DNA of 64,000 nucleotides from Bdellovibrio sp. CG22_combo_CG10-13_8_21_14_all_39_27 (GTDB lineage: Bacteria; Bdellovibrionota; Bacteriovoracia; Bacteriovoracales; Bacteriovoracaceae), in contig PCTW01000084.1 of assembly GCA_002786715.1 (NCBI GenBank), forward strand, positions 62,001-126,000, written 5' to 3'. Positions 18,792 through 35,769 of this stretch are shown here, piece by piece (position 1 is the first letter of the stretch; each line of letters starts with the position of its first letter). Position numbers and translations under genes: made by a program. The notes under the pieces were generated by a model, which worked only from the letters and a program-made list of their open reading frames with translations, had not been told where the DNA came from and made no database searches.

Positions 18792-19655
18792 ATGGCAAAA
18801 TTACTCGAATCTAAGTCAGTTGTCGATTCACAATTAGAAAAGCTCAAGAAGCGAGTTGCTGCTCTTTCACAACTTGGAATTGTTCCCAATATGCGTGTTA
18901 TTTTGGTTGGTGAGAATCCTGCCAGTTTAGTTTATGTAAAAAATAAAAAGACCCTATCGGAAAAAGTTGGAGCTCAATGTACTATTGATAAACTCCCAGA
19001 AAATATAAGTAAGGCCGATTTTGTCTCTCATTTAAATTCAGTCGTGAATAATTCCGCCGTCCATGGTTGCTTTGTTCAGCTCCCCTTACCTCAGCAATTA
19101 AAAGACACACCAATTGCCCATATGATTCCTCCATCAATGGATGTCGATGGCTTTACTCCGGATAGTCTTTTTGCACTGATGGAAGGCGACAAGGGCGAAA
19201 AAGCTTTATTGCCTTGTACTCCAAAAGGCATCATTACTCTTTTGCAGCATTACAATATAGATATTAGTGGAAAAAATATTGTGATTATTGGTCGCAGCCT
19301 GATTGTTGGAAAACCGATGAGCTATCTTTTTACAAATCACGATGCCACAGTAACCCTTTGCCACTCAAAAACTAAAAACATCAAAGAACATACTCAAATG
19401 GCTGACATCATTGTCGTGGCCATTGGTGTGGCTGAATATCTTGATGAAACTTTTTTAAGTAAAAATAAAAACCAAGTCATCATAGACGTTGGGATGAATA
19501 AAAAGCCTGATGGCAAACTGTGCGGAGACGTTCATTTTCAAAAAGTTAAAGATCATTGCGACTCGATCACGCCTGTTCCTGGTGGAGTCGGACCAATGAC
19601 TGTTCTAAGCTTAATCGAAAATTTAATTTTCGCTGCCGAAAGAAAAGGAAGATAG
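18792..19655 (+). CDS. folD: Methylenetetrahydrofolate dehydrogenase/cyclohydrolase
   Basis: This 287-residue bifunctional enzyme interconverts 5,10-methylene-, methenyl- and 10-formyl-tetrahydrofolate. The catalytic YVKNKKTL region near residues 48-55 contains the essential Tyr and Lys. Family motifs are LPCTPKGI, the NADP-binding IIGRSLIVGKPMS and the C-terminal TPVPGGVGPMTV. It ends one base before gcvT. Methylene-tetrahydrofolate from the glycine cleavage system would feed it directly, so the three-gene group is coherent. Confidence 0.98.
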   Translation: MAKLLESKSVVDSQLEKLKKRVAALSQLGIVPNMRVILVGENPASLVYVKNKKTLSEKVGAQCTIDKLPENISKADFVSHLNSVVNNSAVHGCFVQLPLPQQLKDTPIAHMIPPSMDVDGFTPDSLFALMEGDKGEKALLPCTPKGIITLLQHYNIDISGKNIVIIGRSLIVGKPMSYLFTNHDATVTLCHSKTKNIKEHTQMADIIVVAIGVAEYLDETFLSKNKNQVIIDVGMNKKPDGKLCGDVHFQKVKDHCDSITPVPGGVGPMTVLSLIENLIFAAERKGR

Positions 19656-26655: not shown

Positions 26656-26670
26656 AGACCAGGAGGGTCT
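26656..26670 (+). promoter_or_regulatory. CsrA-type hairpin covering the flgF ribosome site
   Basis: AGACC and GGTCT form a perfect 5-bp stem with the loop AGGAG, which is the Shine-Dalgarno of flgF. The stem ends two bases before the TTG start at 26673. An AGGA/ANGGA motif presented in a small hairpin loop over the ribosome site is the classical CsrA (RsmA) target. The protein partner CsrA is encoded at 34886 in the same cluster. Binding is inferred, not shown. Confidence 0.6.
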
Positions 26671-30959: not shown

Positions 30960-31015
30960 TCATTTTTTTCACTAGGAGATTTTTTTTCCTATTTGTGATA
31001 AAATAACAAGAGGAA

Positions 31016-31051
31016 TCCCAGGATGGGAGACCACTGATACCAGGAAGGTAT
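31016..31051 (+). promoter_or_regulatory. Tandem CsrA-type hairpins in the flgJ leader
   Basis: Two small hairpins lie before flgJ. The first (31016-31028) has stem TCCC/GGGA and loop AGGAT. The second (31037-31051) has a perfect 5-bp stem ATACC/GGTAT and loop AGGAA; it covers the Shine-Dalgarno and ends two bases before the TTG start at 31054. CsrA dimers commonly bridge two such sites. The second hairpin has the same geometry as the one in front of flgF. Confidence 0.6.
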
Positions 31052-31053
31052 GA

Positions 31054-31455
31054 TTGAATATAACAGATAAAAAGCCATTACCTATTGCTTCTCAGAGCAA
31101 ATCTAAGGAATTCGTTCCAGATAAATTCAAAGAAGTCGCTGGCTCTATGGAGCAGCAGTTTTCTGAAATGATGCTTCAAGAAATGCATAAGACCATTGAT
31201 CGCACTGAACCTGAAAATAATGCTGAAACTTTTTATAAATCTCTTCAGACTCAAGAGTATGCAAAGTCACTTTCAAATGGTGATGACGGAACAGGACTTA
31301 AGAAAATGATTCTCGACCAGATCTACCCACAACATATGCGGAATGAAATTAACTTCCGTCGATTTCAAGGTCAACAACTAGCGGCCAATCAGCCCAAGAT
31401 GCCAAAAAAACCTGAACAACAATTGATTCAGGGAAAGGAGCTCAATCATGAGTAG
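31054..31455 (+). CDS. flgJ: Flagellar rod-binding protein FlgJ-like (no muramidase domain)
   Basis: This 133-residue protein corresponds to the N-terminal rod-capping half of FlgJ. It has KFKEVAGSMEQQFSEMMLQE and FYKSLQTQEYAKSLSNGDDG, the family pattern. The glucosaminidase domain found in gammaproteobacterial FlgJ is absent, as in many other phyla, so rod penetration of the wall must use another enzyme. The start is TTG 31054, just after a hairpin that contains its ribosome site. The C-terminus is Gln- and Lys-rich and overlaps flgM by eight bases. Confidence 0.85.
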   Translation: MNITDKKPLPIASQSKSKEFVPDKFKEVAGSMEQQFSEMMLQEMHKTIDRTEPENNAETFYKSLQTQEYAKSLSNGDDGTGLKKMILDQIYPQHMRNEINFRRFQGQQLAANQPKMPKKPEQQLIQGKELNHE

Positions 31456-34847: not shown

Positions 34848-34862
34848 GAATCAGGATGGTTC
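34848..34862 (+). promoter_or_regulatory. CsrA-type hairpin in the csrA leader
   Basis: GAATC and GGTTC form a 5-bp stem (one G-U pair) with loop AGGAT, 23 bases before the csrA start. The core C-AGGAT-G is identical to that of the first flgJ hairpin. It suggests that CsrA binds its own mRNA. A second small stem, CCTC/GAGG with loop TAA, includes the csrA ribosome site. Confidence 0.55.
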
Positions 34863-34885: not shown

Positions 34886-35116
34886 ATGTTGGTTTTGACA
34901 CGGAAGCTAGGTGAAAGTATTGCAATCGATGACCATATCAAGATTGTGGTCGTATCTATTAAGGGCAAGCAAGTTCGTCTTGGCATAAAAGCGCCCAAAG
35001 AAACAAAAATCCATAGAGAAGAAGTCTATAAGGCTATTCAGGATCAAAATGAGGAAGCGGCGCAGTCTGACATTACCTCACTTTCTGATCTTACGAGCGA
35101 CCTCAATAAGAAGTAA
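34886..35116 (+). CDS. csrA: Carbon storage regulator CsrA
   Basis: This 76-residue RNA-binding dimer controls translation by binding GGA motifs in mRNA leaders. The family core is complete: MLVLTRKLGESIAIDDHIKI, then VRLGIKAPKETKIHREEVY with the RNA-contacting L4, R6 and R44. The C-terminal tail (about 20 residues, Ser/Asp-rich) is longer than in Escherichia coli. It lies between flgL and fliW. In such genomes FliW binds CsrA and lifts repression of flagellar mRNAs. Confidence 0.97.
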   Translation: MLVLTRKLGESIAIDDHIKIVVVSIKGKQVRLGIKAPKETKIHREEVYKAIQDQNEEAAQSDITSLSDLTSDLNKK

Positions 35117-35124
35117 ATTCCTAC

Positions 35125-35154
35125 TTGCACATTCGGAAGACCGGTTGCTAGAAT
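35125..35154 (+). promoter_or_regulatory. Predicted promoter of fliW
   Basis: TTGCAC (35125-35130), an 18-base spacer and TAGAAT (35149-35154) lie 40 bases before the fliW start. It would let fliW be expressed independently of csrA. Confidence 0.45.
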
Positions 35155-35193
35155 CTTTTAGGGCTTTTTTAGCCTGTTTATTGGGAGGCATCG

Positions 35194-35769
35194 GTGAAAT
35201 TTAATACGACTAGATTTGGTGAACTTGAAGTTGATAAAAAAGATATACTCAACTTTGCTGAAGGCCTTCTTGGTTTTGAACAGTTAACAAAATTTTTCGT
35301 AGTTGATCCAGGTGATCAGACTCTCATTCTTTGGCTACAATCAGTTGATGATCCTAAAGTTGCATTTCCAATTTTAGAACCAAAGATTTTTAAATCTGAC
35401 TATTCTATTAAGCTATTGCCTTCTGAGCTTCAAAGTCTTTCTCTTGAAAGCCTAAGTGATGCAACGATTTATGCCATTCTTACTATTCCAAAAAATGTTA
35501 CTGATATGTCTGCGAACCTTAAAGCTCCTATCATCATTAACAACAAGACTAAGAATGCACGCCAGATCGTTCTTCAAGACAGTAAATTAGAAGTAAGATT
35601 CAATATGTATATTGAACTCAAGAGAAGCATCGTAGCTTTTGCTTCAGATGATTCTAAACGTACTAAAGTAAGCGCGCCTCAAGTTGTTTCAAACACAACT
35701 TCAGAAATTTCAACTGAAAAAGTTGAAGCACCAGCTACTAAGCCTGCCAATAATACAAAAGAACTTTAA
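35194..35769 (+). CDS. fliW: Flagellar assembly factor FliW
   Basis: This 191-residue protein belongs to the FliW family, which antagonises CsrA and is itself titrated by flagellin. Visible features are the start FNTTRFGELEVDKKDILNFA, GLLGFEQLTKFFVVDPGDQT and LWLQSVDDPKVAFPILEP, then APIIINNKTKNARQIVLQD. The C-terminal 45 residues are a low-complexity Ser/Thr/Ala-rich tail beyond the usual length. The start is GTG 35194 with GGGAGG upstream. It ends before a bidirectional terminator. Confidence 0.95.
   Translation: MKFNTTRFGELEVDKKDILNFAEGLLGFEQLTKFFVVDPGDQTLILWLQSVDDPKVAFPILEPKIFKSDYSIKLLPSELQSLSLESLSDATIYAILTIPKNVTDMSANLKAPIIINNKTKNARQIVLQDSKLEVRFNMYIELKRSIVAFASDDSKRTKVSAPQVVSNTTSEISTEKVEAPATKPANNTKEL

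Follow-up and report, generated by a model that had tools for sequence, protein, structure and literature searches.

Paired binding sites for CsrA or RsmA have been described in repressed leaders such as those of E. coli glgC, B. subtilis hag, and C. jejuni flaA and flgI. In these leaders one site coincides with the Shine-Dalgarno sequence, a second lies upstream at a spacing within dimer-bridging range, and AGGA is displayed in loops. In other bacteria the protein FliW antagonises CsrA, and FliW bacteria encode the two proteins near each other. In the repression of glgC, a hairpin site is bridged to the Shine-Dalgarno site by one CsrA dimer (PMC7652899), and C. jejuni CsrA binds several flagellar leaders under the control of FliW (PMC4894983). 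The accessible portions of two reports on Geobacter sulfurreducens give an operon flgJMNKL-csrA-fliW, the same gene order as in the DNA analysed here (PMC11934962, PMC13407953), with csrA co-transcribed from flgJ (PMC11934962). The predicted sites in these portions are linear VVAAGGAGRV matches, and no hairpin pair in a flgJ leader is described there (PMC11934962, PMC13407953).

We analysed a 64-kb stretch (the window) of a Bacteriovoracaceae genome in which the flgJ leader resembles the repressed leaders: AGGA lies in hairpin loops, with one site at the Shine-Dalgarno sequence and one upstream at a bridgeable spacing, and csrA and fliW are encoded nearby. However, the targets here would be flgJ and flgF rather than flagellin as in hag and flaA, both sites are compact pentaloop hairpins, and csrA and fliW stand at the end of the target's own gene string, unlike in systems of the glgC, hag or flaA type. 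The features of the window are as follows.

26656 to 26670, forward strand: flgF leader hairpin, AGACC-AGGAG-GGTCT, two bases before the TTG start (26673)
30996 to 31004, forward strand: extended -10 element TG-A-TAAAAT, with a putative transcription start near 31011
31016 to 31028, forward strand: HP1, the upstream CsrA-type hairpin, TCCC-AGGAT-GGGA, containing no Shine-Dalgarno sequence of flgJ
31029 to 31036, forward strand: spacer of 8 nt between HP1 and HP2, giving 22 nt from GGA to GGA
31037 to 31051, forward strand: HP2, CsrA-type hairpin, ATACC-AGGAA-GGTAT, whose loop is the flgJ Shine-Dalgarno sequence
31054 to 31455, forward strand: flgJ, rod-binding domain only, TTG start, its end overlapping the flgM start at 31448
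34848 to 34862, forward strand: csrA leader hairpin, GAATC-AGGAT-GGTTC, with one G-U pair, about 34 nt before the csrA start
34886 to 35119, forward strand: csrA, the sole CsrA gene of the 4.08-Mb genome, with a C-terminal extension and N at position 55
35194 to 35769, forward strand: fliW (PF02623, E = 3e-37)

HP2 ends two bases before the TTG at 31054 that starts flgJ. Both hairpins lie in the 94-nt spacer between flgI and flgJ and are included in the minimum free energy fold of the leader (z = -2.0). The sequences, positions and 8-base separation of the two hairpins given in the first-pass annotation were correct to the base, and its likening of HP2 to the flgF hairpin in stem length, loop size and distance to a TTG start also held, the flgF hairpin standing two bases before its TTG as well. 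Our analysis adds the csrA-leader site, the nearby promoter, the family-wide conservation and the related small RNA that Bdellovibrio has at this locus. The extended -10 element was not singled out by a simple sigma-70 scan of the sequence. Of 81 distinct flgJ leaders, 66 had the motif TGnTAnnAT just 5' of the hairpins, compared with 0-20% for flgG, flgH, flgI, flgN, flgK and flgL, which suggests that the 5' end of the flgJ mRNA probably lies a few bases ahead of HP1.

Pfam calls among the ten reading frames scanned were flgF, flgG, flgA, flgH, flgI, flgJ, flgM, flgN, csrA and fliW, while flgK and flgL (32292 and 33761), between flgN and csrA, were assigned by position and synteny. The order flgFGAHIJMNKL-csrA-fliW was kept in relatives, and we infer one long transcript through the gene string. 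The best solved-structure match of the window CsrA was 5dmb, a chain of a CsrA homologue. Alignment and reading showed L4, R6, R44 and N55 in the window CsrA, which we take to be the RNA-binding and FliW-contact positions. For N55 this assignment is also given in PMC11934962. An extended -10 element of fliW itself, TTGCTAGAAT, was found within positions 35140-35193 of the window and at the same place in 42 of 43 relatives, suggesting that fliW can probably be transcribed separately from csrA.

The motif CAGGANG occurred only 19 times on both strands of the window, and a stem of 4 bp or more was formed only at the flgF site, at the two flgJ sites and in the csrA leader. Watson-Crick hairpins of this form numbered 3, compared with 0.45 in dinucleotide shuffles. 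When the 94-nt spacer was shuffled 20,000 times, at least one hairpin formed in 0.2% of the shuffles and two formed in none. The first-pass annotation had held that independent sequences of the same architecture are hard to explain by chance or duplication; this was borne out, both explanations being ruled out by the shuffles and by the differing stem sequences. It had also proposed comparing hairpin frequency with shuffled leaders and non-target genes, and the frequencies were far from equal. Shuffles predicted AGGAN hairpins in 1.2 of the 84 flgJ leaders of the family, but 64 had them; 16 leaders carried at least two, against 0 in shuffles. In the source genome, where leaders were counted in a 271-kb sample of other sequence (6.6% of the genome), 3 of 252 AGGA sites at the Shine-Dalgarno position were enclosed by a stem of 4 bp or more, and only one of these was C-G closed. 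Qualifying sites in the flanks of named relatives numbered 35 of 83 at flgJ and 21 of 75 at flgF, compared with 32 of 747 elsewhere.

The relatives retrieved via FlgI were Bacteriovoracaceae, and tandem AGGA-loop hairpins recurred in the flgJ leaders of the family, built on stems that differed. So that pairing played no part in the choice of sites, HP2 was picked only by an AGGA at Shine-Dalgarno spacing from the open flgJ frame (82 of 84 leaders), and HP1 was picked only as the nearest upstream GGA, present in 70 of the 82. The third stem pair of HP2 was kept in 84% of leaders compared with 39% when the arms were exchanged among species at random (at most 55% in any of 1000 permutations), and all eight HP1 stem positions (1-8) were paired in 65-81% compared with 39-48% after permutation; the species are related, so these counts are not independent events, and the permutations preserve column composition, not the tree. 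Covariation was 0.59 against 0.26 for HP2 (54 sequences) and 0.93 against 0.25 for HP1 (43 sequences, filtered by eye), and 0 of 500 shuffles reached the observed value for either hairpin.

Since the AGGA of HP2 doubles as the Shine-Dalgarno sequence, conservation of HP2 alone proves nothing about CsrA. HP1 was also defined in the reverse manner, by taking whichever hairpin upstream of HP2 was strongest and leaving GGA out of the choice. The loop of the hairpin chosen in this way contained GGA in 53 of 80 flgJ leaders, and the seven controls from the same loci spanned 2-13% (flgG 3/44, flgH 9/70, flgI 2/77, flgN 5/71, flgK 4/59, flgL 3/49 and fliW 2/41). Because HP1 is not a Shine-Dalgarno sequence, this enrichment points to a GGA-type RNA-binding protein. 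A reading of HP1 as a Shine-Dalgarno element only was ruled out by the same test. We conclude that the paired hairpins are genuine and are conserved, with changing sequence, over about 80 predatory bacteria and relatives.

In some flgJ leaders (L032, L054, L058, L085, L092 and L098) the HP1 stem was retained while the loop GGA had become TGA. The putative CsrA site at HP1 has apparently been lost in several lineages, so dual binding is not universal.

In the flgJ leader, as in known CsrA leaders, the loop AGGA is conserved while the stems change, and a second site accompanies the Shine-Dalgarno site at a permitted distance, the 22 nt from GGA to GGA falling within the 10-63 nt range of CsrA-dimer bridging (PMC7652899). 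The genome encodes CsrA from one gene. The flgJ loops match the CsrB repeats, CAGGA(U/A/C)G (PMC7652899). Most E. coli SELEX ligands have a six-nucleotide loop with AC/GU closing, whereas the flgJ leader has C-G closed AGGAN pentaloops, the former being a majority preference and no requirement. The earlier interpretation of the hairpins as paired CsrA-type sites is supported by covariation, GGA enrichment, non-target depletion, gene neighbourhood and spacing.

We consider it highly probable that a CsrA dimer bridges HP1 and HP2 and represses flgJ, in a feedback relieved by FliW. The leader would be a short 5' UTR with its own promoter just upstream and two AGGA-loop hairpins. CsrA would dock at HP1 and then bridge to HP2, which would block ribosome entry at the Shine-Dalgarno loop and repress flgJ, and flgM would probably be repressed as well through its reading frame overlapping flgJ. 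Most likely this would act as feedback on the expression of rod, hook and anti-sigma genes, with FliW relieving it. Such feedback control is likely given that the flgJ gene string closes with csrA and fliW and that csrA and flgF bear the same kind of hairpin. The flgJ leader would thus join the known class of CsrA-bound leaders as a predicted member, and a small RNA at the same locus in the sister lineages adds to its interest.

Binding of CsrA to both hairpins could instead stabilise or activate the flgJ mRNA, as for flhDC or ymdA in E. coli. HP1 begins within a few bases of the putative 5' end, two sites near the transcript 5' end resemble flhDC, and HP2 pairs around the Shine-Dalgarno sequence, so that its opening could activate as for ymdA (PMC7652899). 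However, the HP2 loop displays the Shine-Dalgarno sequence in the usual geometry for ribosome competition and the FliW-CsrA systems in the same review work by repression (PMC7652899), and we regard activation as improbable. We likewise give little credence to a leader that is chiefly a trans-acting, mRNA-derived CsrA sponge with flgJ control as a by-product. The C. jejuni flaA leader does titrate CsrA (PMC4894983), and the same spacer in seven other families holds a terminated, sponge-like RNA with multiple GGA sites, but the flgJ leader has just two sites, HP2 is fixed at the Shine-Dalgarno sequence, and no terminator was detected ahead of flgJ within the window. Hairpins at mRNA 5' ends can be stabilising and the AGGA of HP2 coincides with the Shine-Dalgarno sequence, yet hairpins that serve Shine-Dalgarno presentation, temperature sensing or generic mRNA stabilisation with no role for CsrA are very unlikely, because such a role leaves unexplained the GGA in the HP1 loop, where there is no Shine-Dalgarno sequence, the csrA-leader motif about 34 nt from the start, and the RNA with multiple GGA sites that relatives carry in this spacer.

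The same motif also precedes other genes. AGGAN hairpins were found in 14 of 51 flgF leaders (0.6 expected) and in 10 of 48 csrA leaders (0.24 expected), the arms of the latter varying among relatives. The flgF hairpin was absent from the minimum free energy fold of its leader piece and the csrA hairpin was not the fold preferred by RNAfold for a 63-nt piece (z = +0.8), so both rest on comparison and not on energy. The csrA-leader hairpin is a candidate autoregulatory site. Among the three sites in the 271-kb sample was a hairpin AGTAC-AGGAG-GTGCT directly before the ATG of lon, a gene named from its sequence:

19586 to 19604 of locus L116 (contig C8 of the source genome, G000): lon hairpin of seven pairs, ATAGTAC-AGGAG-GTGCTAT, covering the Shine-Dalgarno sequence and the start codon

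Of 25 such leaders in the family, 21 kept this hairpin with paired changes, making lon a probable further CsrA target. With these predicted sites at flgJ, flgF, csrA and lon, a CsrA flagellar regulon in predatory Bdellovibrionota gains comparative evidence for the first time in the literature searched.

Apart from flgL, seven flagellin genes are present in the source genome, and inspection of their seven leaders (contigs C45, C83, C34 and C87) showed no clear AGGA hairpin. Flagellin was thus rejected as the main visible target, and the network would depart from the hag/flaA model seen in other FliW bacteria.

Across loci L032-L111, an excess of AGGAN hairpins was also seen upstream of flgM (19 of 85 against 0.5, in counts that include coding sequence) and upstream of flgA (21 of 52 against 5.7, where the shuffled expectation is abnormally high).

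A structured RNA of about 200 nt (model R1) was found in the flgI-flgJ spacer of seven other families (f6, f10, f13, f17, f20, f21 and f22). It has five GGA-loop hairpins, whose GGA is in every case either invariant or more than 90% conserved, and is closed by a GGGGAG...CUCCCC terminator stem followed by a T-run, the T-run having been part of the selection. Covariation was 0.361 compared with 0.170, and 93% of pairs were paired compared with 83% in shuffled and at most 46% in slid controls. The covariance model found one copy each in 49 of 192 genomes of the phylum (E = 1e-9 to 1e-60), and all 47 matches with listed flgI coordinates, compared by hand, followed flgI on its own strand at a distance of at most about 160 nt. 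In nearly all examined loci of the R1 families, csrA and fliW were downstream. The model found no copy in the source genome (best E = 4.25) or in the Bacteriovoracaceae genomes of the phylum survey. Rfam gave no match, with none to the CsrB or RsmX/Y/Z families at gathering or relaxed thresholds, and no known RNA family was identified.

One R1 match lay at 499,376-499,587 of genome G148, which we take to be B. bacteriovorus HD100. There R1 coincides with APsRNA1 (positions 96-302 of locus L200, corresponding to 499,375-499,581), a published attack-phase small RNA with no assigned function. APsRNA1 was reported at 499,375-499,581 on the plus strand with a length of 207 nt, was 16-fold higher in attack phase, and had no reported homology outside B. 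bacteriovorus (Karunker et al., PMC3627812). No other paper in the literature searched names it. From the R1 matches we conclude that APsRNA1 is conserved over at least 27 genera and 7 families of Bdellovibrionota.

Like the CsrB/RsmZ-type small RNAs, R1 has repeated GGA-loop hairpins, here with covariation, and an intrinsic terminator at which a discrete and, in HD100, abundant transcript (APsRNA1) ends. It differs from them in matching no Rfam family, in its place between flgI and flgJ, and in hosts that also encode FliW. R1 is a strong candidate for CsrB/RsmZ-type function, given the missing Rfam match a likeness in mode of action rather than established homology, and APsRNA1 is probably a CsrA-binding, CsrB-like sponge. 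This would propose a function for an attack-phase RNA of B. bacteriovorus that has been unexplained since 2013.

On balance, we favour the view that CsrA-binding RNA has long been housed between flgI and flgJ in Bdellovibrionota. The spacer would hold a two-hairpin repressing flgJ leader in Bacteriovoracaceae and the terminated five-hairpin sponge APsRNA1 in Bdellovibrio and six further families, placing CsrA under both a CsrB-like small RNA and FliW and tying it to the attack phase. A 2020 review left it as an undecided question whether any species controls CsrA through FliW and small RNAs together (PMC7652899), and Bdellovibrio is a laboratory-tractable organism that appears to have both FliW and a CsrA-sponge-like small RNA.

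A third layout of the spacer was observed in families f8, f11, f19 and f24, with nearly invariant CCAGGAAAC and GCCTGCTAGGATGGTGGGT. The loci with this layout (L140, L142, L143, L146-L149, L151 and L202-L212) often contained GGCA(T/C)GGAAGCC hairpins.
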